DNA of 59,083 nucleotides from assembly GCA_040218145.1 (NCBI GenBank), contig JAVJQK010000067.1:1-59083 (forward strand). The letters are read 5' to 3'. A model generated the notes under the pieces. The model saw nothing but the letters and a program-made list of their open reading frames with translations, was not told the DNA's origin and searched no databases. Made by a program: the position numbers and the translations under genes. Positions 23,394-37,672 of this stretch are shown piece by piece. The stretch comes from Sandaracinaceae bacterium (GTDB lineage Bacteria; Myxococcota_A; Polyangia; Polyangiales; Sandaracinaceae). Position 1 is the first letter of the stretch; each line of letters starts with the position of its first letter.

Positions 23394-25640
23394 CTAGCGT
23401 TCCTCGCCGTCCGCGGGTCGCTCGGACTCGCGGATCGCGCGCTGGAGCGCCTTGGCGTCCAGGGACTGCATGGAGCGGACGAGGTCGTCGACGATCTCCT
23501 CGCGGCTGCGCTTCTTGCGGATCTCCACCCGCACGTCGAGCATCGGGAAGAGCGCGTCGCGGGTGTGCTCGGGGAGCACGTTCTCGAGGTACTCGAGCGC
23601 GGTGCCGCGGAGGTTGGTGTCGTCGGTGGCGAGCGCGACGAGGGAGAGGCGCAGCGGCTCGGGGTCGTAGGCGAGGCTGAGCAGGGTGAAGACGTGCTCG
23701 ACGCTGCGGTGCACACGATCGCGCCGCGCCTTGTCGAGGAGCGGGGCGTCTTCGTCGGTGTCGTCGTCGAGGAGGCGGCGCTGCTCCCAGACCTTGCGGC
23801 CGATGTTCAGCTCCCTGGCCACGGCCTCGAGCACGGGCTCGCGGGGAGGTCGACGCTCGGGCAGGCGCGTCGCGATGCGGGCCAGCGCGAGGGCGCAGCG
23901 ATAGCGGACCTCGAAGAGGCTGTCGTCGAGCCCGCGCGCGAGCCCCTCGGCCGCCTCGGGCGCGTCGCAGACCTCGAGCACGCGCGGCAGCCGCCGCCGG
24001 ATGGCGAAGGGCTGGTCGGGGTCGGAGACGGCCTCGGCGAGCGCGGGCGCGATCTCGTCGGCGATGCCCCGGAGGGCGCGGATGGCGTCCTGGTGCACGT
24101 CTCGGCGCGCGAGGAGCGCGATGGCGAAGGGCGCGAGCCGCGGGTCGAGCACCTCGTCCTTCAGCGCGCTGCGGATCTCGTCCGGCGATCCGGCGCGCAG
24201 GGTGTGGGCGCGGGCGTGGACCGGATCGGAGGCGGGCGCGTCGATGCCGTCGGGCGGAGGCGCGGAGCGCTCCTCCGCGGGGGGGTGGGTCTGTCGATCG
24301 CTCCACGACTGATGCGCGGCGAGCTGCTCGAAGAGCGCCTCGCGGTCGAGGCCGAGGGTGGACAGGGTCTGCAGGGTCGCCGCCTCGAGCACCGCCCTCT
24401 CCGCGGCGAAGGGCGTGCCGCTCCGGAGGCTCTCCTCGAGCTGGCCGACGTACCCGCGGTGAAGTCGTCGCGCGATGTAGAGGCTGAACGCCGCGACGGC
24501 GGCCGCGAGGCCGAGCACGAGCTTCAGCGAGATGGCCGGCGCCACCGCCAGGATGACGATGACCATGCCGCTGCCGAGCGCGTCGCCGACGCGGTTGCCC
24601 GCCACGTCGATGAGCGCCTTGGTGGGGCGCTTCTTGTCCGGCGAGACCGGCGTGTAGAGCAGCTCGTAGCCGCTCCGGAAGATGCTGTTCGCGAGCACGA
24701 GCTCCGTCGCGCGCGCCACGACCACCGTGCCGATCCGGGTCAGGCCCGCCGCCACCGCCGCCGTCATCAGGACCACGGTGGGCAGGGTCGCCACGCTCCC
24801 GGCCACGCCCAGCCGCTCGAGCGCGGGCTTGGCCGCGCCCGTCTGCAAGACGAGCGAGAGCACGGCCGCGCCGACGTGGAAGATGGCGAAGAAGCTCAGC
24901 ATGTCCTGCGAGCCCTGCTCGAACTGCCGCGCCGCCTCGGCCTTGAAGGCGTAGTCGAGCAGCCCCGCGCTGATCGCGGTCAGCACCACGATCGCCGCGA
25001 GCGAGCGCAGATACGGCGCCTTGAGCAGGACGCGGAGCCCCGAGGTGCTGGCCGAGACGGGGTCCTCGTGCTCACCCTCCCCGCCCCCGATGCGCGCCAC
25101 GCCGAAGGCCGCGAGGACGTTGAGGCCCGCGAGCACGATCAGCATCGCGTTCGCGTCGAAGGCCTCCCCGACGCGCCACGCGACCAGGCCCCCGACCACG
25201 CCGCCGACCGTGGCCCCGGTGCCGATGCGGCTGACCATGCCCTTGGCCGAGTGGGGGTCGAAGCGCTCGTTCACCACCGACCAGAAGCCGCTGATCACCA
25301 GCGCGCCGAAGACCGCGGTGTGGAGATACAGGACGACGGCGACGGGGCGCGGCGCGCCTTGCACGAGCAGCCACTCCGCGAGGTAGAGCAGGCCGCTGAT
25401 CCCGAAGGAGAAGGGCACCACGCGGGCGGGGCCGAAGCGGGCGAAGGCGCGCGAGGCGGCGAAGACCGCGACCATCGACGCGGCGGCCGACGCGATCACG
25501 ACCCGCGGGAGGTCCTCCGCGTCGAAGCTCGAGAGGAACAGCGCGTCCCGGGTGGCCTTGCTGCCGACCTGCTGGGCGATCATCACGCCAGCCGAGATCA
25601 GCGCGGCGAGGGCGGCCCGCCGATCCTTGTCCTGCGCCAC
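23394..25640 (-). CDS. ATP/ADP-carrier-like MFS transporter with C-terminal HEAT-repeat domain
   Basis: The product is 748 residues from a GTG start. Residues 1-400 form about twelve membrane segments and resemble the Npt1/Npt2 family (nucleotide carriers of obligate intracellular bacteria and plastids) and related MFS proteins. Examples are QQVGSKATRDALFLSSF and a loop with RSGYELLYTPVSPDKKRPTKALIDV, which is characteristic of the family. Residues about 500-740 are helical repeats of the HEAT type. Free-living relatives do not necessarily exchange ATP for ADP, so the substrate is open. Confidence 0.82.
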   Translation of the reverse strand: MAQDKDRRAALAALISAGVMIAQQVGSKATRDALFLSSFDAEDLPRVVIASAAASMVAVFAASRAFARFGPARVVPFSFGISGLLYLAEWLLVQGAPRPVAVVLYLHTAVFGALVISGFWSVVNERFDPHSAKGMVSRIGTGATVGGVVGGLVAWRVGEAFDANAMLIVLAGLNVLAAFGVARIGGGEGEHEDPVSASTSGLRVLLKAPYLRSLAAIVVLTAISAGLLDYAFKAEAARQFEQGSQDMLSFFAIFHVGAAVLSLVLQTGAAKPALERLGVAGSVATLPTVVLMTAAVAAGLTRIGTVVVARATELVLANSIFRSGYELLYTPVSPDKKRPTKALIDVAGNRVGDALGSGMVIVILAVAPAISLKLVLGLAAAVAAFSLYIARRLHRGYVGQLEESLRSGTPFAAERAVLEAATLQTLSTLGLDREALFEQLAAHQSWSDRQTHPPAEERSAPPPDGIDAPASDPVHARAHTLRAGSPDEIRSALKDEVLDPRLAPFAIALLARRDVHQDAIRALRGIADEIAPALAEAVSDPDQPFAIRRRLPRVLEVCDAPEAAEGLARGLDDSLFEVRYRCALALARIATRLPERRPPREPVLEAVARELNIGRKVWEQRRLLDDDTDEDAPLLDKARRDRVHRSVEHVFTLLSLAYDPEPLRLSLVALATDDTNLRGTALEYLENVLPEHTRDALFPMLDVRVEIRKKRSREEIVDDLVRSMQSLDAKALQRAIRESERPADGEER

Positions 25641-27106: not shown

Positions 27107-28384
27107 CTACAGCCTGGCGAGCCGCCGCTGCGCGATGGAGGAGCTCGGGTCCCGCTCGAGCGCCCGCTCCCACGCCTCGCGCGCGGCGGCCGCGTCCCCG
27201 CTCCGCTCGTGGAGGAGCGCCAGGTTCATCAGCGGGTTCGGGTCGCGCGCGTCGAGCTCCGCCGCTCGGTCGAGCGCCAGCGCCGCCTGCTCCGCGTCGC
27301 CCAGGTGCATCAGCGACGCGCCGAGCCCGTTGAACGCCGCGGCCAGCTCCGGCGCCCGCTCGAGCGCGTTGCGGAACGCGCCCGCCGCGTCCTGGTACTG
27401 CTCGAGGAGCGCGAGCGCGTTGCCGAGCTTGAGCCAAGAGGCCGCGTCGGCGCCCTCCCGCGCGATGGCGTCCCGGTAGGTCGCGACCGCGTCTTCGTAG
27501 CTTCGCAAGTCCCGCTGCATGTCTCCCAGCGCCAGGAGCGGCTCGGCGTCGTTGGGGCTCAGCTCCGCAGCCCGGGCGAAGTCCGCCTGCGCCGCGTACA
27601 CGTCCCCGAGCGCGGCCCGCGCGAGCCCTCGCCCGAGGTGGGCGTCCCCGTCGCTCTCCGCCGCGCGCACCGCGTGCTCGAACGCGTCGAGCGCCGCCTG
27701 GTGATCGCCACGCCGCCGATGGAGCCGTCCGAGGTTGATCCACGCGTCGTGCGCGGTCGGGTCCACCCGCACCGCGTCGGAGTACGCGCCCGCGGCCGCG
27801 TCCTCGTCGAGGAGCAGCTCGTGCGCGAGCCCGCGCCGGTTGTGCAGCGCGGCCACGTCGTCGTCGAGCTCCCGGAGGTGCCCGAGCGCGGCCCGGCCGT
27901 CCTCCGCGTCGAGGGCCAGATCCGCGGCCAGCATGCGCCCGTGCACGTGCCCCGGCTCGAGCGCGAGCGCGCCCGCGAGCAGCGCCTCCGCCTCGTTCTC
28001 CTGGCTCCGCGCCCGCGCCACCGCCGCGGCGAGGACCTCCACGTCCGCGTTGCGCCCCAGCCGATGCCGGGCCGAGGTCAGCTCCCCCTCCGCGAGCACC
28101 ATGTCGCCGCGCTGGTAGTCCTCGAGCGCGTGCGCGTAGGCGAGCAGGCCCACCGTCGCGTCGTCCCGGCGGCCCTCCTCCATGGCGCGCTCGAGGAGCG
28201 AGGCCGCGGTCGACGCCTGCAGCCGATCGATCCCCGGCGCCTCCGAGAGCGGCGCGTCCAGGCGCGCCTGCGCCCGCGCCACCAGATCGCTCGCGGCCAT
28301 GTCGCGCCACGCGCTCCAGCCGATGGCGAGCATCCCGCTGAGCGCGGTCACCCCGAGAGAGACGAAGAGCAAACGTCGACGCAT
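27107..28384 (-). CDS. TPR-repeat protein with N-terminal membrane anchor
   Basis: The 425-residue protein begins with a hydrophobic segment (LLFVSLGVTALSGMLAIGW) that is probably an uncleaved anchor. At least eight tetratricopeptide units follow, with typical Ala-x-x-Leu-Gly/Ala-x-x-Tyr spacing, such as AWINLGRLHRRRGDHQAALDAFEHAV and SWLKLGNALALLEQYQDAAGAFRNAL. TPR domains mediate protein contacts; the partner is unknown. It converges on the hugZ-like gene with a 19-bp gap. Confidence 0.85.
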   Translation of the reverse strand: MRRRLLFVSLGVTALSGMLAIGWSAWRDMAASDLVARAQARLDAPLSEAPGIDRLQASTAASLLERAMEEGRRDDATVGLLAYAHALEDYQRGDMVLAEGELTSARHRLGRNADVEVLAAAVARARSQENEAEALLAGALALEPGHVHGRMLAADLALDAEDGRAALGHLRELDDDVAALHNRRGLAHELLLDEDAAAGAYSDAVRVDPTAHDAWINLGRLHRRRGDHQAALDAFEHAVRAAESDGDAHLGRGLARAALGDVYAAQADFARAAELSPNDAEPLLALGDMQRDLRSYEDAVATYRDAIAREGADAASWLKLGNALALLEQYQDAAGAFRNALERAPELAAAFNGLGASLMHLGDAEQAALALDRAAELDARDPNPLMNLALLHERSGDAAAAREAWERALERDPSSSIAQRRLARL

Positions 28385-28432: not shown

Positions 28433-31132
28433 CTACCAGGCGACGACGACGGGGATGTGCGAGTCGCTGCTGAAGCCTCGCCCGAGCTGGTAGGCGCCGC
28501 CCTCTCCCCAGCACCAGACGCCGCCTCCGCTCGTGCGCGCGCAGCTGTGCTCCGCCCCGGCCGCGACGGCCACGACGTCCGTGAGCGTCCCCGCGTCGAC
28601 CGGCGCGCGGGACGCCCGCCTCAGCCCATCGCCCAGCTGGCCGCTGCTCCCCGCGCCCCAGCAGGACGCCCTCCCCGAGCTTCGCGCGACGCACGCGTGA
28701 TCCCCCGAGGCGGCCAGGTCGATCGCGTCGGTGAGCCCGGTGACCGGGGTCGGCGTCAGCCGGTCAGCGGTCCCTCCGTCCCCGATCTGACCCAGAACGT
28801 TGTTCCCCCAGCAGCTCACGGCCCCGGCGGCTCGCCGCGCGCACGTATGGTTGCGCCCCAGGGCGATCTGAACCGCGTCGCTGAGCCCCGACACGACGAC
28901 CGGCGTCGACGCGCTCGTGGTCGTCCCGTCACCGAGCTGCCCGTCATAATTGGAGCCCCAGCAACGCACGGTGCCGTCCTCGAGACGCGCGCAGGCGTGC
29001 CGCTCACCCACGTGAACCTCGGCCACACCCGCCAGCCCCGGCACCACGGTCGGCGTCGACACGCGCCCAGGCGGCGCGCCCGCCGCGCTCCCGTAGTTGC
29101 TCCCCCAGCAGCGCACCGTGCCGTCAGCGGCGCGGGCGCAGGTCGCGGGGGGCCCGACGCTGAGCTGCGTGGCGGTGACGCCCGAGAGTCGGATCGGGCT
29201 CGGCCGGTCGGTCGTCGTGCCGTCGCCGACCTGGTTCAGCCCGTTCTCGCCCCAGCAATGAACCGACTGGTCCGTCGCCACGTAGCAGTGGGTGTCGTCG
29301 ATGGAGTGGTCGAAGTCGATGGCCGTCGGCGGGGGCACGGTGACCAGCGTCGGCGCTCGACCGAAGAAGAGGGTGGGGCCGGGAGTCCCCCAGCACAGCA
29401 GGCGACCGCTCGACAGTCGCGCACAAGCCGACGTCTCGCTCGCCCGAAGCCCGACCACCGTCTCGCAGCCGCCCGTCACGCAGGTGACCGCGCAGACGTT
29501 GCCGCACATCCCGCAGTCCGACTCGGCGGAGTCGAGATCGCGGCAAGCCCCCCCGCAGTCGGTCTCGCCGACGGGGCACTCGCACACTCCGCTCGAGCAC
29601 GTGCCGCCGCTCGGGCACCGGTTGCCACACGCGCCGCAATTGACCGGGCTCGAGTCGAGGACGACGCAGCGACCGTCACAAACCACCTCTCCGGCGGGGC
29701 AGCGGCACGCGCCCGCGTCGCAGCTCCCCCCGAAGGGGCAACGGTTGAAGCAGGCGCCGCAGTGCTGGTTGCTCGTCGAGAGGTCGGCGCAGAAGCCTCC
29801 GCAGAGCTCCCCATCGCCCGGGCACGTGCAAGCCCCGGCCATGCAGCCGTCCGACGCGGCAGGGCAGCGGGTATCGCACGCGCCGCAGTGGTCGTCGTCG
29901 CTGTCGAGATCCACACAGCGTGCGCCGCAGCGGACCTCCCCGTCCGGGCAGACGCAGGAGCCGTCCTGACAGAGCTGCCCTCCGGTGCACGTTCGGCCGC
30001 AGAGGCCGCAGTTGAAGCTGTCACTCGAGGTGTCCAGGCAGCGGCCGCAATACGTCTCGCCGGCCGGGCACGCGCAGACGCCGTCGACACAGGACTGCCC
30101 GGGGCCGCAGCGCATCCCGCACGCGCCGCAGTGGTTCGGGTCGTTGAGGGTGTCGACGCAGAGGCCGGAGCAGGCGACGCCTCCCATGGGGCAGTCGCAC
30201 ACGCCGCGAACGCAGGGGGCGCCGGCCGGGCAGGCGCGGCCGCACGCGCCGCAGTGCATGGGGTCCGCGTCGAGATCGACGCAGTCGCGGCCGCACAGCG
30301 CGCCGCCGTCGGGGCACGTGCACGTCCCGCGGACGCACCGCTGCGCGGAGGCGCAGACGTTCCTGCACCCGCCGCAGTTCATGGGGTCCGCCTGCACCGA
30401 CAGGCACGCGCCACCGCAGCGCATCCCTCCGTCGGGACAGGCGCACGATCCGCGCACACAGACCTCGTCGACGGCGCAGCGCACGCCGCAGTCGCCGCAG
30501 TTCGTCGGATCCTCGAACACGTCGACGCAGCCGCCCTCGCAGACCCGCTCGCCGAAACCGCAGCCGCAGTCCCCGTCCAGACACGGCACGCCATCCGGAC
30601 AGGTGGACCCACAGCGACCGCAGTGGAGGTCGTCGGAGGAGAGATCCACGCAGCGCCCCCCGCAGTCCGCCGTGCCTTCGGGACAGACGCAGGCCGCGTC
30701 GTCGCAGACCGCGCCGTCGGGGCACGCGCGGCCGCAGCCCCCGCAGTGCCGAGGGTCCTCGGGCGCGACGACCTCCCCCTCACAGAACCGGCAGTCGTCC
30801 GCGGCGCCGTTACAGTCGTTGTCGAGCCCGTCCCCGCAGACCTCGCGCGACGCGTTCGGCACGCAACCACAGACGCGCGCGTCGATGTCCGGCTGCACGC
30901 ACTCCCAGTTGCGGCCCGCGGGGCAGTCCGTGCGCGCGCCGCACACCCGCGAACAGACGGCGCGACCGTCCTCGAGCGCGAGGCAGATGCCGCTCTCGCA
31001 GTCCTCCGAGACCTCGCACGGGGCGCCGAAGGCCGCCAGCGCGACGGCTCCGTCGAGCGCGTCGAGGGGCGGGCTCTCGCAGCCCAGCGCCAGCATCGAG
31101 AGCGCGAGCCAACCGACACGCCTCAACGCCAC
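28433..31132 (-). CDS. Giant Cys-module plus RCC1 lipoprotein, copy 2
   Basis: The product is about 899 residues from the second of two GTGs (31138, 31132), chosen by analogy with its paralogue at 31656-34970. The signal ends LSMLALGC. It then has a disulfide-type domain, an N-D-C-N/D-G motif (GDGLDNDCNGAADDC), and eleven units of about 40 residues built on CVDL-x-D-x-x-HCGxCG-x-x-C-x(6)-C-x-x-G-x-C-x-CP. The last 340 residues hold seven RCC1 units (GDGTTT ... HxCAR ... DGTVRCWGxN), enough for one seven-bladed propeller. It is probably a surface adhesin or receptor; no enzyme motif is seen. The start overlaps the upstream gene's stop. Confidence 0.88.
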   Translation of the reverse strand: MALRRVGWLALSMLALGCESPPLDALDGAVALAAFGAPCEVSEDCESGICLALEDGRAVCSRVCGARTDCPAGRNWECVQPDIDARVCGCVPNASREVCGDGLDNDCNGAADDCRFCEGEVVAPEDPRHCGGCGRACPDGAVCDDAACVCPEGTADCGGRCVDLSSDDLHCGRCGSTCPDGVPCLDGDCGCGFGERVCEGGCVDVFEDPTNCGDCGVRCAVDEVCVRGSCACPDGGMRCGGACLSVQADPMNCGGCRNVCASAQRCVRGTCTCPDGGALCGRDCVDLDADPMHCGACGRACPAGAPCVRGVCDCPMGGVACSGLCVDTLNDPNHCGACGMRCGPGQSCVDGVCACPAGETYCGRCLDTSSDSFNCGLCGRTCTGGQLCQDGSCVCPDGEVRCGARCVDLDSDDDHCGACDTRCPAASDGCMAGACTCPGDGELCGGFCADLSTSNQHCGACFNRCPFGGSCDAGACRCPAGEVVCDGRCVVLDSSPVNCGACGNRCPSGGTCSSGVCECPVGETDCGGACRDLDSAESDCGMCGNVCAVTCVTGGCETVVGLRASETSACARLSSGRLLCWGTPGPTLFFGRAPTLVTVPPPTAIDFDHSIDDTHCYVATDQSVHCWGENGLNQVGDGTTTDRPSPIRLSGVTATQLSVGPPATCARAADGTVRCWGSNYGSAAGAPPGRVSTPTVVPGLAGVAEVHVGERHACARLEDGTVRCWGSNYDGQLGDGTTTSASTPVVVSGLSDAVQIALGRNHTCARRAAGAVSCWGNNVLGQIGDGGTADRLTPTPVTGLTDAIDLAASGDHACVARSSGRASCWGAGSSGQLGDGLRRASRAPVDAGTLTDVVAVAAGAEHSCARTSGGGVWCWGEGGAYQLGRGFSSDSHIPVVVAW

Positions 31133-31659
31133 GTGCACCCCGGCTGTTGGTTACAGCTGAGCTCGAGCGCGAAGGACTCACAGGGCGTGCTCGTGCCGGC
31201 GCAGCCCTCGGACCAGCGGCACCCGTCTTGGCTCGAGCAGCTGAAGCGCTCCCCGAAGAGACGACACGACCTCGGAGATCCCGAGCACGAGCCGGAGCCC
31301 GACGATCGCCAGTAGCAGCCGAGGTGGTCGTTGCACGCCCCCCGACTGCTCTGGAGCGAGCAGGGATACGGCACGCCTTCGCAGTCCGACTCCCACCGGC
31401 AGCCGTCGCCCTCCGTGCAGCTGAGCTCACTCGCGCGCAGCAGACAGCTCCGCGCCACGCCTCGACAGGAGAGCGCGGGCGCGAGGCCCGAGTCGATCCC
31501 GCCATCCGCGGTGGGCACGGGAGCGACCATCGCGGCGTCGAAGCGGACCTGCCCGCCCTCCGGCCCGCGAGCCGGCGGCGCGCAGGCGACCGCCGCCGTG
31601 GCGAGGAGCGCGACGAGCGCGAAGCCCACCGGGGCCTGGCAGCGATGGGCGGAGCTCAC
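31123..31659 (-). CDS. W/C-repeat lipoprotein, copy 2
   Basis: A 178-residue product from a GTG at 31659 that overlaps the stop of the upstream giant gene by 4 bp (GTGA). The signal ends AAVACA. The mature part has four units of the form C-x-G-x(3-4)-C-x(8)-C-x(4)-GCxW, ending in GCTWR. It is a clear paralogue of the 206-residue protein at 34961-35581, and its own stop overlaps the start of the next giant gene in the same way. The family is unknown. Translational coupling on both sides suggests fixed stoichiometry with its neighbours. Confidence 0.8.
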   Translation of the reverse strand: MSSAHRCQAPVGFALVALLATAAVACAPPARGPEGGQVRFDAAMVAPVPTADGGIDSGLAPALSCRGVARSCLLRASELSCTEGDGCRWESDCEGVPYPCSLQSSRGACNDHLGCYWRSSGSGSCSGSPRSCRLFGERFSCSSQDGCRWSEGCAGTSTPCESFALELSCNQQPGCTWR

Positions 31660-34600
31660 CAGCGCACGGCCGTGGGGGTGAGGCGGGGCGACGAGGTCCC
31701 GTCTCCCACCTGAGCGCGGTAGTTGGAGCCCCAGCAGCGCACGTCCCCCGCCGTCGTCGTGGCGCAGGTGTGCTGGTCCCCCACGTCCACCGAGCTCGCG
31801 TCCGTCAGCGCCGGGGTGGCGGTCGGCCAGGGGGTGTCGGTGGTGGTGCCGTCGCCGAGCTGACCGCCGTGGTTCCGGCCCCAGCAGCGCATCCCACCGC
31901 CCGTGCGCACCGCGCAGGTGTGCCACGTGCCGACCGCCACGTGGGAGGCGTCCGTGAGGGTGGGCACCGCCAGCGGCGTGCTCCGGGTCGTGGTCGAGCC
32001 GTCGCCCAGCTGACCGTACCCGTTGTACCCCCAGCAGCTCACTCGGCCGTCCATGTGGCGCGCGCAGCTCACCGAGCCACCCATCGCGATCTGCACCGCG
32101 TCCGTGATGCCCGTCACTGCGACCGGGGTCGTGGTGCTGGTCATCGTGCCGTCCCCGAGCTGGCCGTACGTGTTGTTGCCCCAGCAGCGAACCGTGCCGT
32201 CCGTGAGTCGCGCGCAGCTGTGGTTGTGGCCGCTCCGCACCTCCGCCACTCCGGCGAGCCCGGAGATCGGGGCCGGCGTCGTCACGTAGCTGCCCGTGGT
32301 GCCCGCAGCGTAGCCCTGGCCCCAGCACTCGACGCTGCCGTCCGAGAGCCGGGCGCAGCTCGCCGTCCCCCCCACGGTGACCTGCGTGGCCGTGGTGACG
32401 CCCGTCAACACGACGGGCGCGTAGCGGTTCGTGCGCGTTCCGTCACCCGCCCCGTAGTAGTAGTTGTAGCCCCAGCAACCGAGCGTGCCGTCGCTCTCGA
32501 CCCAGCAGTGGGTCAGGCCGTTGGTGTCGAAGTCCGAGACCTGGGTGGGCGTGTCACGACGGGTCGGCGTGGAGCCCGCGCCGAGGCCATATCGGTTGTA
32601 GCCCCAGCAGTAGAGTCGCCCGTTCGACATGACGGCGCAGGAGGCCTCGGCGCCGAGGCCGAGCGAGCCCGCCGTCGCGCAGCTCCCGCCCGCGCAGACC
32701 AGTGAGCACGTCGTGCCGCAGGCGCCGCAGTTCATCTCGTCGTCCTCGACGTCGATGCAGGCGCCGCCGCAGACGGTGGCGCCGCCCGGGCAGGTGCAGG
32801 TCCCGCTCAGACACGTCGCCCCGGTCGCGCACGCGGTGCCGCAGCTGCCGCAGTGGCGCTCGTCGCTCGTGGTGTAGGTGCACGCGCCGTCGCACACCTC
32901 GGAGCCGCCCGGGCAGGCGCAGGTGCCGCTGACGCAGGTCGCGCCGGTCGCGCACGAGGTGCCGCAGGCGCCGCAGTTGCCCTCGTCCGACTGGAGATCG
33001 GTGCACGCGCCGCCGCAGACGGTCTGGGCGCCGGGGCAGTAGCAGGCGCCGCTGAGGCACGTCGCGCCGGTGGCGCAGGTGGTGCCGCACGTGCCGCAGT
33101 TCAGCTCGTCGTCCTGGGTCGAGGTGCACCGGCCGCCGCAGACGCTGCCGCCGCCAGGGCACGTGCACGTGCCGCTCAGGCAGGTCGCGCCGGTGGCGCA
33201 GGTGGTGCCGCACGCGCCGCAGTTCAGCTCGTCGTCCTGCGTGGTGGCGCAGCGCCCCCCGCAGACGACGCCGCCGCCCGGACACCCGCAGGTGCCCGCG
33301 GTGCAGACCGCGCCGATGGCGCAGGTGGTGCCGCACGCGCCGCAGTGGGCCGTGCTCGAGGAGAGATCCACGCAGCGGCCATCACAGACGACCTGGCCCG
33401 CGGGGCACTCACAGGTGCCGCCGTTGCAGCTCTGCCCCGTCGCGCAGGCGTTGCCGCAGCTCCCGCAGCTGGCCGTGCTCGAGGAGAGATCCACGCAGCG
33501 ATCGCCGCACACGGTCTGCCCCGACGGGCACGCGCAGGTGCCGCTCACGCACGACGAGCCCCACGGGCAGCGGTTGCCGCAGGAGCCGCAGTTGTTGAAG
33601 TCGCTGGACAGGACGCGGCAGCTCGACCCGCAGAGCGAGCCGCCGCCCGGGCACTCACACGCGCCCGCGATGCACGACTGCGCCGAGGGGCAGACCACCC
33701 CGCAGCCGCCGCAGTTGTAGCGGTTGCCCTCGACGTCGGTGCAGCGCCCGCCGCAGGAGATCTGTCCGGTCGGGCACTCGCACACGCCCTCGACGCAGCT
33801 CCGTCCGCCGGCGCAGCCCGTCCCGCAGCGGCCGCAGTTCCGGATGTCGGTGTCGGTGTCGGTGCAGCCCGCGCTGCAATACATCTCGTCACCCGGGCAC
33901 GCGCACGCGCCGCTGCGACACACCTGGCCCGACGCGCACCGGACCCCGCAGCCCCCGCAGTTCAACGGATCGCTGGTGGTGTTGCGGCAGGCGCCGTCGC
34001 ACACCGGCCCGCCGCCCGGGCAATCGCACGCGCCGTCGACGCAGGCGACGCCGGCCGGGCACTCCTGCCCACAGCCGCCGCAGTTCAGCCGGCTGACGTC
34101 GAGGTCCACGCACGAGTCGCCGCAGAGCGCGCCGCCGCCCGCGCACGTGCACGCGCCGCGGTCGCACCGCTGCCCGGTCACGCACGCGTTGCCGCAGAAC
34201 CCGCAGTGGGCCTCGTCGTCGTCGGTGCTGACGCACACTCCATCGCAGCGCTCGCCGCCGTCGGGGCAGACGCAGGCGCCTCCGTCGCAGACCTCGTCGC
34301 TCTCGCAGGTGACGCCGCACCCGCCGCAGTTCAGCGCGTCGGAGGTGACGTCCACGCAGACGTCGTCGCACGGCATCTCGCCGTCGTCGCAGCCGCAGAG
34401 CCCCTCGATGCAGGGCACGTCGAACGCGCAGGCGGTGCCGCAGCCGCCGCAGTGGTTCTCGTCGTACGCGGTGTCGACGCAGCGCGCGCCGCACTGGATC
34501 TCGTCGGCCGGGCACACACAGCTCCCCGCCTCGCAGAGCGCGCCTGACGGGCAGGCGATGTCGCACCCGCCGCAGTGACGGACGTCGTCCATCGGGACCG

Positions 34601-34970
34601 CGACCCCGTCGCAGATCCGGCAGTCGTCGGTCGCGCCGTCGCAGTCGTTGTCGAGCCCGTCGCCGCAGATCTCCTCGGTGGCGTCGGGGACGCAGCCGCA
34701 CACGCGCGCGCCGAACCGGTCGGGCTGCACGCAGCCCCAGTTGCCGCTGTCGGGGCAGTCCGCGTCCGTGGCGCAGCCCCGGGTGCAGAACGCCCGGTCC
34801 GCCGCGATCTCGAGGCAGAGCCCGCTGAGGCAGTCTCCGCTGACGCCGCAGGCCTCCGTGAACTCGGCCATGGCGCCGCCGTCGCCGCCCATCGGCCGAT
34901 CGCCTTCACAGGCCATGAGGAGGAGGCTCGCCGCGGCGAGCGCCCAGAGGAAGTTGCGCTTCAGTACCAC
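31656..34970 (-). CDS. Giant Cys-module plus RCC1 lipoprotein, copy 1
   Basis: About 1104 residues from a GTG at 34970 (GTG at 34976 also in frame). A signal ending LLLMAC follows directly. Order of parts: a short Cys domain, GDGLDNDCDGATDDC, sixteen Cys modules of about 40 residues centred on HCG/NCGxCG, then seven RCC1 units with repeated CWGxN. Modules 12-16 are nearly identical (CATGATCLSGTC), pointing to recent expansion. The roughly 140 Cys imply an oxidised extracellular fold. It forms a cassette with the 206-residue lipoprotein upstream and is duplicated by the next two genes. Confidence 0.9.
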   Translation of the reverse strand: MVLKRNFLWALAAASLLLMACEGDRPMGGDGGAMAEFTEACGVSGDCLSGLCLEIAADRAFCTRGCATDADCPDSGNWGCVQPDRFGARVCGCVPDATEEICGDGLDNDCDGATDDCRICDGVAVPMDDVRHCGGCDIACPSGALCEAGSCVCPADEIQCGARCVDTAYDENHCGGCGTACAFDVPCIEGLCGCDDGEMPCDDVCVDVTSDALNCGGCGVTCESDEVCDGGACVCPDGGERCDGVCVSTDDDEAHCGFCGNACVTGQRCDRGACTCAGGGALCGDSCVDLDVSRLNCGGCGQECPAGVACVDGACDCPGGGPVCDGACRNTTSDPLNCGGCGVRCASGQVCRSGACACPGDEMYCSAGCTDTDTDIRNCGRCGTGCAGGRSCVEGVCECPTGQISCGGRCTDVEGNRYNCGGCGVVCPSAQSCIAGACECPGGGSLCGSSCRVLSSDFNNCGSCGNRCPWGSSCVSGTCACPSGQTVCGDRCVDLSSSTASCGSCGNACATGQSCNGGTCECPAGQVVCDGRCVDLSSSTAHCGACGTTCAIGAVCTAGTCGCPGGGVVCGGRCATTQDDELNCGACGTTCATGATCLSGTCTCPGGGSVCGGRCTSTQDDELNCGTCGTTCATGATCLSGACYCPGAQTVCGGACTDLQSDEGNCGACGTSCATGATCVSGTCACPGGSEVCDGACTYTTSDERHCGSCGTACATGATCLSGTCTCPGGATVCGGACIDVEDDEMNCGACGTTCSLVCAGGSCATAGSLGLGAEASCAVMSNGRLYCWGYNRYGLGAGSTPTRRDTPTQVSDFDTNGLTHCWVESDGTLGCWGYNYYYGAGDGTRTNRYAPVVLTGVTTATQVTVGGTASCARLSDGSVECWGQGYAAGTTGSYVTTPAPISGLAGVAEVRSGHNHSCARLTDGTVRCWGNNTYGQLGDGTMTSTTTPVAVTGITDAVQIAMGGSVSCARHMDGRVSCWGYNGYGQLGDGSTTTRSTPLAVPTLTDASHVAVGTWHTCAVRTGGGMRCWGRNHGGQLGDGTTTDTPWPTATPALTDASSVDVGDQHTCATTTAGDVRCWGSNYRAQVGDGTSSPRLTPTAVRW
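32715..33345 (-). repeat. DNA tandem repeats of about 120 bp inside the giant lipoprotein gene
   Basis: About five units with a period near 120-123 bp encode Cys modules 12-16 of the giant lipoprotein. Phrases such as GCCACCGGCGCGACCTG recur almost unchanged, while the earlier modules in the gene have diverged. This marks recent in-frame expansion and a possible source of length variation. Confidence 0.8.
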
Positions 34971-35581
34971 GAGCACCCCGGCTGGCTGTTGCAGGCGTAA
35001 GAAGAGAAGTACCCGCTGCAGGTCCTGGCCACGCCGAGGCAGTCCCCGTCCCAGCGGCAGCCTTCCTGCCCCGTGCAGGAGGAGCTGCTCGAGTAGGAGC
35101 TGCAGGAGCGCGCGGAGCCGGAGCAGTCGTCGCTGAAGGTGCTCCAGTAGCAGCCGTCCTGGCGGCTGCAGGAGTAGCTGCTGTACCGCGAGTAGCAGCT
35201 CCTCGCGACGCCAGAGCAGTCCTCGTCCCAGCGACAGCCGTCGACCTGGGAGCAGCTCGTCCGCGTGGCCCGGCCGTAGCAGCCGATCGGGACGCCGTTG
35301 CAGCGGGGCTCGGAGGGGCGCACGCCGGAGTCGCGCGGCGTCGTCACGCCGGAGTCGCTGGACGAAGCGCGCGCGTCGGCGGGCTCCACGTCGATCATCG
35401 CCGCGTCGAAGGTGAGCACGCCACCGTCGGGGCCGCGGAGCATCGGAGGCGCCGGGCCATCGCAGGCGGCCAGGGTGAGCGCCGCGAGGGCGACGCCGAG
35501 ATACAGCTTCTGGAACGACAACGCGGCTCTCCCACGCGCGCCGAGGAGGGCGCGGCCGGGGGACGCTATTTCCAGCGCCAT
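34961..35581 (-). CDS. W/C-repeat lipoprotein, copy 1
   Basis: 206 residues from the ATG at 35581. A TTG at 35521 lies closer to the lipoprotein signal (KLYLGVALAALTLAAC) and may be the true start. After an Asp/Ser linker come four units C-x-G-x-x-R-x-C-x(8)-C-x(4)-GCxW, the middle ones rich in Ser and Tyr. The last residues are GCSWY and the stop overlaps the GTG of the giant gene by 10 bp. It is paralogous to the protein at 31123-31659. Function unknown; secreted and disulfide-bonded by inference. Confidence 0.8.
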   Translation of the reverse strand: MALEIASPGRALLGARGRAALSFQKLYLGVALAALTLAACDGPAPPMLRGPDGGVLTFDAAMIDVEPADARASSSDSGVTTPRDSGVRPSEPRCNGVPIGCYGRATRTSCSQVDGCRWDEDCSGVARSCYSRYSSYSCSRQDGCYWSTFSDDCSGSARSCSSYSSSSSCTGQEGCRWDGDCLGVARTCSGYFSSYACNSQPGCSWY

Positions 35582-35681: not shown

Positions 35682-36440
35682 TCACTCGCAGGCGAAGGCC
35701 GGGATGCAGCGGTCCGTGTAGCAGAGCCCGTCGCCCTCGGGCACGGTGCCCTCGGGACAGTTCGGAGCGACGCGCCGGCAGGCGGTCGTGCAGCTGTCGC
35801 CGGTGAGCGGGACGCAGACGGGCGGGGTCACCGGGTCGGTGTCGTCGATGGCGGGCACCGCGGGCACGCAGCCGGCGACGCTGCAGCTGTCGTCGTCGAT
35901 CACGACCGCGTCCGCGCAGGTCGGGGCGCTCGGGAAGCAGCCCCACGCGGGCACCTGACCGCAGCTCGGGCTCCGGCAGGTGACGAACGGGACGCAGCCC
36001 TGGTAGTCCGGGTTGGTGCAGTCCGCGCAAGGCCCGTCGGTGCAGCTCGGGCAGCACGAATCGTCCCAGACCGGCGCGCAGTCCGTGTTCGCGAAGCACG
36101 CCACCGCGCCGAGGCCCTCACAGGGGTCGGGGATCGTGCCACAGGCGGGGGCGGCGCGGTCCGCGATCAGGACCGGGCAGCCCTGCGCGTCGGTGCTGCG
36201 GATGAACGGCCAGCCGTCGAAGCCGGCGATCGTGGCGGAGCACGCGTCCGCGCTCGCGGCCCATCCGCCCGCGGGCAGGGGCGGGTCCCCGGGCGAGCAA
36301 CCCGCGAAGTCGGCGATCGGGCAGCAGACGCCGCCCCCGTCCACCTCGGGGACGCTCCCGTCGGGCTCCGTGTCACCGCCGTGGGAGGAGGAGCACCCGG
36401 CGAGGGCAAGGAGGGAGAGGAGTGCCAGCGTGTGCCGCAT
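35682..36440 (-). CDS. Cys-rich lipoprotein
   Basis: A 252-residue product from the ATG at 36440 (in-frame ATGs at 36446 and 36461 are alternatives). The signal ends LLALAGC. The mature protein has about 26 Cys, including CCPSCTDGPCADC and CSVAGCVPAV, and small repeated blocks of the form C-x(3)-C-x-P. It begins 44 bp after the stop of the riboswitch-controlled gene on the same strand, so it may be part of that transcript. The family is not recognised. Confidence 0.75.
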   Translation of the reverse strand: MRHTLALLSLLALAGCSSSHGGDTEPDGSVPEVDGGGVCCPIADFAGCSPGDPPLPAGGWAASADACSATIAGFDGWPFIRSTDAQGCPVLIADRAAPACGTIPDPCEGLGAVACFANTDCAPVWDDSCCPSCTDGPCADCTNPDYQGCVPFVTCRSPSCGQVPAWGCFPSAPTCADAVVIDDDSCSVAGCVPAVPAIDDTDPVTPPVCVPLTGDSCTTACRRVAPNCPEGTVPEGDGLCYTDRCIPAFACE

Positions 36441-36484
36441 CGTCATGAGGATACGACACACGCAAACACCGGGCCGGCGAGGTA

Positions 36485-37672
36485 CTACTCGACGAGCAGG
36501 AGGCCGCCCGCGAACTCGAGCAACATGCGGCCGCTGCCCGCCTCGTGCGCGACGTCGAAGAGGTTGCCCGAGGTGAGGTCCAGCGGCGCGCCGAGCGTGA
36601 TGCCGCTCGTGGCGTCGAAGGCGTCGACCGGGTACGCGCGCAGCCCGTCGAGGTCGAAGCTCGGGGTCAGGACCTGCACGACGATCATGTCGTTCACGAG
36701 GTCGAAGCTCGAGGGCAGCATCTCCGCCTCGCCGACGCGGACGCCGACCGCCTCGAAGTCGATGGGCGCGCCCGTGGTGAGGGCCGCCTCGATCGCGCTC
36801 GTCGCGACCACGTAGACGCGGCCCCCGTCGTCGAAGAAGCCGCCCGCGAGCACGTAGTCCGGCCCAACCGCCACGCCGCCCGAGAAGTTGCCGAGCCCCG
36901 TGCCGACGCGCGCGGTGGTCGTCTCGCTGCCGAAGCGAGCCGCGTAGAGCCCCTGGCCGCTGCCCGCGCCGTCGAAGCCCATGCCGTTGACGAGCAGGGT
37001 GTCGTCCGACATCCAGGCCGCGTCGAAGTTGCCGTCCGCGGCGAAGTCCGTGTGCGCCCCGTCCATGGTCACGACCGAGAACACCTGACCGCTGAACGTG
37101 GAGTCGCTGACCGTGTAGCCGAAGAGCGCGCGGCTCGCGTCGGGCGACACGGCGAGGTAGCCGCCGAGGAAGGCCATCACGTCGCCCGCGTGGGTGGCCA
37201 TGACGCTCCCGATCGGGCTCTCCGTGGGCTCGCTGGCGCCCATGGCGGCGAACGTCGCCAGATCGAAACGCGTGCCTCCGGCGACCGCCTCGCTGCGCAG
37301 GGTGAAGACCTGCGCCGGGTCACCCGCGTGCGCGCCGAAGCGGGCCGCGTCGCTGCAGAAGGTCCCGACCACGGTCAGGCTCTCGTCGAGGGCCGCGTCC
37401 CAGCCGCTCGTGTCGGCGCCGCAGGTGGCGACGCAGACGCCGCGCACCTCGGCCTCGTCGGCGCCGCAGCCGACGCCGGAGTCCTCGTCGACGCCTCCGT
37501 CGACGCCCGCGTCCTCTTCGACGCCCGTGTCAGCGGGATCGCCCGCGTCGGTGGGGCCGGCGTCGGTCAGGTCCGGGCCGCCGTCCATCATCTCGGTCTC
37601 GCCGTCGCACCCCACGAGGGCGAAGGCCACCATCAGCGCGCCGATGGGCGCGTAGCTACGAATCACGTTCAC
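36485..37672 (-). CDS. Beta-propeller-like lipoprotein under cobalamin riboswitch control
   Basis: 395 residues from a GTG at 37672 with GAGGA 8 nt upstream. The signal ends FALVGC and is followed by about 45 residues of Asp/Gly/Ala/Thr linker. The mature domain has repeated strands typical of a beta-propeller, such as GYLAVSPDASRALFGY, GVAVGPDYVLAGGFFDDGGRVYVV and DAAWMSDDTLLVNG. No enzyme motif is visible. The preceding B12 riboswitch implies a role in cobalamin capture or use. A surface propeller lipoprotein that binds B12 (BtuG) is known in Bacteroides; equivalence here is inference and homology is not claimed. Confidence 0.8.
   Translation of the reverse strand: MNVIRSYAPIGALMVAFALVGCDGETEMMDGGPDLTDAGPTDAGDPADTGVEEDAGVDGGVDEDSGVGCGADEAEVRGVCVATCGADTSGWDAALDESLTVVGTFCSDAARFGAHAGDPAQVFTLRSEAVAGGTRFDLATFAAMGASEPTESPIGSVMATHAGDVMAFLGGYLAVSPDASRALFGYTVSDSTFSGQVFSVVTMDGAHTDFAADGNFDAAWMSDDTLLVNGMGFDGAGSGQGLYAARFGSETTTARVGTGLGNFSGGVAVGPDYVLAGGFFDDGGRVYVVATSAIEAALTTGAPIDFEAVGVRVGEAEMLPSSFDLVNDMIVVQVLTPSFDLDGLRAYPVDAFDATSGITLGAPLDLTSGNLFDVAHEAGSGRMLLEFAGGLLLVE

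Follow-up and report, generated by a model that had tools for sequence, protein, structure and literature searches.

One of the closest described counterparts of the genes analysed here is TraA/TraB, the myxobacterial outer-membrane exchange receptor, in which TraA combines a PA14-like variable domain with a MYXO-CTERM anchor and TraB a β-barrel with an OmpA domain (PMC6372800). We studied a 59,083-nucleotide stretch of a Sandaracinaceae genome (GCA_040218145.1, contig JAVJQK010000067.1; hereafter the window), whose minus strand holds, at 28433-35581, four intact reading frames that make up two diverged pairs of a short and a long lipoprotein gene (short1 with long1, short2 with long2). Like TraA/TraB (PMC6372800), these are overlapping gene pairs for cell-envelope proteins with Cys-rich repeats and a distal domain that differs from one relative to another. 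Unlike in TraA/TraB, each of the two partners is an N-terminal lipoprotein, and that of the long protein is tagged, by a short motif after its lipobox; Pfam and NCBIfam scans of the four proteins found no PA14-like, MYXO-CTERM or OmpA family. By comparison with related genomes, the constant feature of the system is this tag, and neither the Cys repeats of the short protein nor the RCC1 propeller of the long one. The tag had been missed in an earlier note on this DNA, and it follows the long gene into unrelated and unlinked lipoproteins.

The component families are known, and as far as the literature searched shows, the tag-plus-stalk arrangement is undescribed; the search found no paper on myxobacterial lipoproteins that combine Stig1 with RCC1. 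The long protein's stalk is built from modules of the MXAN_6577-like Cys-rich proteins (NF041328, Stig1 PF04885), which, unlike the N-terminal Cys domain (N-domain) with a tagged partner, occur in many copies in most genomes of the order. The head of long1 and long2 resembles the RCC1-like propellers (UVR8, HERC2 RLD, RCC1) by sequence and predicted fold, but sits on a lipid-anchored Cys-rich stalk and is exchanged for another head in seven relatives. An RCC1-repeat protein, the vesicle-specific MXAN_0889, is contained in Myxococcus xanthus outer membrane vesicles (PMC4158809). Lastly, the tag recalls the lipoprotein export signal (LES) of Bacteroidota, K-(D/E)2 or Q-A-(D/E)2 at +2 to +6 (PMC5080379), in being a short motif near the lipidated Cys of unrelated lipoproteins. 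Unlike LES, it is hydrophobic/acidic (L.FDAAM) and begins some 10-30 residues beyond the Cys; LES is absent from the mature starts of the four window lipoproteins (CDGPAPP, CAPPARG, CEGDRPM and CESPPLD).

About 490 related genomes were compared in total, in samples of 183 genomes of the order and 377 of the phylum; G000 denotes the window's genome and G182 one of the same species. A profile of the N-domain, from the signal peptide to CGDGLDNDCDGATDDC, found 14 long genes, each some 900-1100 codons in length, in 12 of the 183 order genomes, in three families (E below 1e-24; two each in G000 and G182, one each in G002, G006, G042, G052, G066, G067, G083, G095, G115 and G150). A clear gap follows these 14 genes, the next matches having E values of 1e-13 or weaker, and there are no long genes outside the order in the 377 sampled phylum genomes. 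Because Stig1 modules are present in 55 of the 56 genomes scanned, the N-domain, and not the stalk, is by these profiles the mark of the long family; G000 has 72 Stig1 module matches, yet only two of its genes have an N-domain and a tagged partner.

The tag, G..G.L.FDAAM[IL], is found just after the lipobox in one to three proteins per genome (for example CDGPAPPMLRGPDGGVLTFDAAMI in short1, CAPPARGPEGGQVRFDAAMV in short2, CSSAEDRLLVDPEGRLEFDAAMI in G006, CGGEPRSDGSMIPGPDGGVITFDGAMI in G052 and CADDGRMMGSEPGILEFDPDMI in G067). It is common to three kinds of small lipoprotein that share no domain, namely type A, the Cys-repeat family of short1 and short2; type B, an unrelated lipoprotein of ~330 residues; and a third kind. 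Eight of the 36 type-A genes inspected are tagged, and all eight abut a long gene, whereas none of the 28 untagged genes does (Fisher p about 4e-8, to be read as a strong pattern and not as a probability, since the sequences are related and G182 repeats G000). Type B is tagged in G000/G182, G006, G042, G052, G066, G067 and G083, all long-bearing, and untagged in G004 and in nine more genomes that lack a strong long match. A tagged lipoprotein is present in every long-bearing genome, even in G042 and G066, where no partner abuts the long gene, and FD[AG]AM was found in no further lipoprotein among those inspected. The tag thus accompanies the long gene irrespective of head, partner body and linkage. 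The third tagged lipoprotein of G000 is a type-B gene unlinked to the window's pairs (C75, L031 7494-8504, plus strand) and convergent with an NtrC-type regulator gene.

Because the tag was first noticed in genes next to long genes, it was also sought independently of them. When a tag profile was run over the 183 genomes, its best non-seed match was a type-B protein of G066 with a perfect tag (E 2e-6); the type-B scan revealed another perfect tag in G042 (tag profile E 2.8e-4), and these are the two long-bearing genomes that had seemed partnerless. Some other top matches, among them G024, G042 C268, G003 and G154, were set aside on reading as lipoprotein starts that are Asp-rich by chance. In leave-one-out runs the seeds scored from 17 to 39 bits, and because the low end overlaps noise, weak tags may occur in other genomes. 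At the DNA level, the pattern [L/V/I]xFD[AG]AM[ILV] has 45 places in the 183 order genomes. Those behind a clear lipobox lie in G000 (three), G182 (three), G002, G006, G042, G052 and G066, all long-bearing; for the first four of these genomes, the known genes served to read the places. One more place, of low complexity, is in G067 C24, long-bearing as well. No inspected match in the phylum sample stood at a lipoprotein start outside the long-bearing genomes, and in most of the uninspected ones the residue preceding the phenylalanine is a proline, which is also the case in acyltransferases; one has a stop codon at that place.

Heads and partners vary. Seven of the 14 long proteins have an RCC1 head (G000 and G182 twice each, G006, G067 and G083), and the other seven (G002, G042, G052, G066, G095, G115 and G150) have a head of about 350 residues with no Pfam match, which we suspect, judging only from its repeats, to be a propeller too. 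The C-termini of these seven (L020, L097, L098, L099, L102, L103 and L104) are all a conserved ...CP or ...CPR, perhaps forming a disulfide that closes the head. A partner lipoprotein abuts 12 of the 14 long genes, in 11 species and three families. Type-A genes lie upstream in G000 and G182 (twice each), G002, G095 and G115 and downstream in G150; type-B genes abut downstream in G006 and G067 and are a convergent neighbour in G052 and a divergent one in G083. No predictive pattern was seen between head type and partner type.

In G083, a lipoprotein of the third kind lies directly downstream of the long gene (L105 7399-8562, minus strand), with a loose tag, DDVYRFDPNAPMDAG, and a weak DUF7107 match below the cut-off (E 6.7e-4); an untagged type-A gene is near the long gene, with other genes in between. 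In the type-A partner of G150 (L104 9387-10265, plus strand), an extra Cys-rich module, CETTADCAQGLTC..., separates the tag from the Cys repeats; an untagged protein of G097 (L109 7010-7906) resembles this partner.

Same-strand junctions between long gene and partner are exact NTGA overlaps in 11 of the 12 cases tabulated, in either gene order, the exception being a 14-nucleotide overlap in G095. Since the coupling has been kept in relatives well outside the window, joint action of the products is probable, as the earlier note had proposed. Its choice of Cys repeat and RCC1 as the conserved elements did not survive the comparison, and a short-plus-long cassette is ruled out as the conserved unit, since most Cys-repeat genes (28 of 36) stand apart from any long gene. 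The finding that the note would have counted against itself, short and long genes occurring mostly apart, is accordingly true of the short family at large and not of its tagged members.

In the window itself, the duplicated two-gene cassette, with the same order and domains in both copies, was confirmed (Table 1). Short1 and short2 are 43% identical (BLASTP E 5e-29) and long1 and long2 47% (E 0), which indicates a true, old tandem duplication. All four reading frames have high third-position GC, and both pairs are present in G182 as well. Between G000 and G182, the ratio of nonsynonymous to synonymous substitution rates (dN/dS) is 0.20-0.31 for long1, long2 and short2, placing these genes under purifying selection by this measure; short1 has too few changes for an estimate.

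The three junctions in the window are exact 4-nucleotide overlaps, CTGA from short1 to long1, GTGA from long1 to short2 and TTGA from short2 to long2. Since the long1-short2 junction overlaps as well, the sequence indicates that all four genes are one coupled array. The matching junctions described earlier are in this respect real; the accompanying GTGCNCGTGG, taken for part of a start region, is simply the coding sequence for the last four residues of the short protein, Gly-Cys-Ser/Thr-Trp or GC(S/T)W, and is conserved because the short proteins are homologous, which rules it out as a start signal. Each long gene likely starts at the NTG of its overlap, because the signal peptides KRNFLWALAAASLLLMAC and RRVGWLALSMLALGC start exactly there. 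The probable CTG of long1 occupies 34964-34962, with upstream GTGs as alternatives; the GTG starts used for the long genes in the earlier note lie 6 nucleotides upstream of the NTG starts. For short1, TTG 35521 is a more plausible start than ATG 35581.

Table 1. Coordinates of the four lipoprotein genes and their parts in the window.
Feature	Position	Strand	Reading frame as listed	Description and evidence
short1	34961-35521	-	34961-35581	Type-A lipoprotein: signal peptide, lipobox LAAC, tag, Asp/Ser linker, four Cys repeats; frame reaches ATG 35581
short1 signal peptide, lipobox and tag (CDGPAPPMLRGPDGGVLTFDAAMI)	35387-35506	-		Tag profile match; DNA pattern match 35394-35415
short1 four ~28-residue Cys repeats (CxGxAxxC-x8-C-xxQxGCxW)	34966-35302	-		
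long1	31656-34964	-	31656-34970	Lipoprotein: N-domain, Stig1 stalk, RCC1 propeller; probable CTG start 34964 overlaps short1 stop
long1 signal peptide and N-domain, ending CGDGLDNDCDGATDDC	34611-34961	-		
long1 stalk, Stig1/MXAN_6577 modules	32600-34619 (approximate limits)	-		PF04885 E 1.2e-62, 15 stretches; NF041328 E 2e-168
long1 RCC1-like β-propeller head	31665-32507	-		PF25390 E 2e-71, PF00415
short2	31123-31659	-	31123-31659	Type-A lipoprotein; GTG start overlaps long1 stop
short2 signal peptide, lipobox and tag (CAPPARGPEGGQVRFDAAMV)	31522-31635	-		Tag profile and DNA pattern matches
long2	28433-31126	-	28433-31132	Second stalk-propeller lipoprotein; probable TTG start 31126 overlaps short2 stop (TTGA)
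long2 signal peptide and N-domain	30782-31123	-		
long2 Stig1 stalk	29465-30784 (approximate limits)	-		PF04885 E 1.5e-46, 10 stretches; NF041328 E 9.8e-104
long2 RCC1-like propeller head	28442-29287	-		PF25390 E 4.7e-71; Foldseek to UVR8

The long proteins are lipoproteins comprising an N-domain, a Stig1/MXAN_6577 stalk and an RCC1 propeller. For long1 and long2, respectively, PF04885 scored 209 and 157 bits (cut-off 24.1), NF041328 553 and 343 bits (cut-off 100) and PF25390 242 and 241 bits (cut-off 150). The AlphaFold2 model of long2 (mean predicted local distance difference test score, pLDDT, 68) shows repeated β-hairpin modules and a head that matches UVR8 (Foldseek E 1.9e-29, TM 0.82 by target) and other RCC1 propellers.

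The short proteins comprise a signal peptide, a lipobox, a linker and four Cys repeats, with 16 Cys invariant across eight relatives; in short1 the repeats were modelled by AlphaFold2 with a pLDDT of about 83-92. Neither short1 nor short2 matched a Pfam or NCBIfam family. Both the Cys repeat and type B lack a family in Pfam and a relative among PDB sequences, and the Cys-repeat model had no significant match among solved structures. The Cys spacing ending in GCxW is common to the repeat and the plexin-semaphorin-integrin (PSI) domain, and one repeat superposes on the PSI region of semaphorin 2b with a root-mean-square deviation of 1.4 Å over 31 residues, which is not significant (Z 2.3, Foldseek E 8); Pfam found no PSI match in short1 or short2.

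Upstream on the same strand are two more lipoprotein genes (35682-36461 and 36485-37672), one of them Cys-rich and neither with a family match or a tag. Membership in the unit is unsupported for the flanking genes, the lipoprotein gene at 35682-36461 and a TPR gene at 27107-28384, as G002 has other neighbours. At 23394-25640 (minus strand) is a 748-residue protein whose N-terminal part is transporter-like and whose C-terminal part is soluble; by eye only, it resembles an ADP/ATP-translocase-type fusion.

How might tag and long protein be related? We propose, at about even confidence, that small lipoproteins dock through the tag onto the N-domain, the membrane-proximal part of a stalk protein with an exchangeable head, and that the locus belongs to a tag-and-stalk system found more widely in the order. 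The locus encodes two copies of a pair of envelope lipoproteins that are co-translated through their gene overlaps. The long protein is an N-terminally lipidated stalk, with the N-domain near the membrane, 10-15 Stig1-type disulfide modules and an exchangeable distal head; its small partners, whose folds are unrelated (the four Cys repeats in one kind, the type-B domain in another), would bind the N-domain through the common tag shortly after the lipidated Cys. We propose the N-domain as the receptor because it is present in all long proteins and lies beside the lipid anchor like the tag, and because N-domain and tag stay constant while heads and partner bodies differ. The outcome would be a two-part outer-membrane complex presenting head and partner body together. 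In M. xanthus, Ala at +7 marks lipoproteins of the extracellular matrix and Lys at +2 those of the inner membrane, the others residing in the outer membrane (PMC3222651). The four window lipoproteins lack both residues, which suggests an outer-membrane location, although M. xanthus is distantly related and the rule indicative at best. The long stalk with its exchangeable head, by analogy with TraA and not by homology, makes recognition, adhesion or ligand capture the likely task.

Several observations weigh against docking. Most of the training sequences of the tag profile were neighbours of long genes, which leaves G042 and G066 as the only real out-of-sample cases, and genuine tags may score near noise (18 bits locally in G042). 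Second-line type-B relatives in the long-bearing G002 and G115 are untagged, and the tags of G083 and G150 are loose (YRFDPNAP, YRFDGSI, VEVDPNRI). Solo type-A proteins of G001 and G006 carry a partial motif, TFDAAVVDA, with no profile score, and no long gene was detected in G001. Conservation of the N-domain alone does not make it the receptor, and the tag region of short1 is unstructured in the AlphaFold2 model, which fits a peptide motif and proves nothing.

The tag could instead be a sorting or surface-export signal, FDAAM being read by a dedicated lipoprotein export machine and the long protein being part of the route or a fellow client. Its place at the lipoprotein N-terminus, like that of LES in Bacteroidota (PMC5080379) and the +7 Ala of M. 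xanthus extracellular matrix lipoproteins (PMC3222651), and its presence on proteins of unrelated fold would suit such a signal. We nonetheless find this unlikely, as the long proteins lack the tag and an export signal is normally present on many lipoproteins of a genome, against the one to three found here. The Slam family (PF04575) had no match in 18 genomes and none in the control genomes either.

Slightly less probable again is hitch-hiking, in which long and small lipoprotein genes move horizontally as a unit and their N-termini became alike through recombination of neighbouring genes, with no functional link. The patchy occurrence, in 12 of 183 genomes and three families, would fit this, as would the N-domain gene tree, which was meant to time the head swaps and whose branching is unresolved. 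Against it, tagged type-B genes are unlinked in G042, G066 and G000/G182, the NTGA coupling is retained in both gene orders, three of the four window genes are under purifying selection, and the tag is retained while the remainder of the partner is unrelated. The version of the earlier note, with the Cys-repeat protein as specific ligand of the RCC1 head in a ligand/scaffold unit, explains the exact co-duplication of both genes in the window but is improbable, since Cys-repeat partners also occur with non-RCC1 heads (G002, G095, G115, G150) and RCC1 heads with type-B partners (G006, G067, G083).

Returning to docking on the N-domain, we tentatively suggest a bolder form of it, in which the FDAAM tag may be a portable plug. 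Lipoproteins that are unrelated in structure would be recruited by it to a dedicated receptor, itself lipid-anchored, whose Cys-rich stalk bears interchangeable heads. If so, one membrane-proximal contact would let the cell build many combinations of head and partner. In this order, huge Cys-rich lipoproteins of the Stig1/MXAN_6577 and RCC1 kinds, with no described role, number in the dozens per genome. The tag predicts which small lipoproteins pair with which stalk protein, and this raises a testable question, whether an N-terminal peptide code specifies partners in the envelope. Such a code, if true, would parallel both TraA/TraB recognition and the lipoprotein export signals of Bacteroidota, with different parts.

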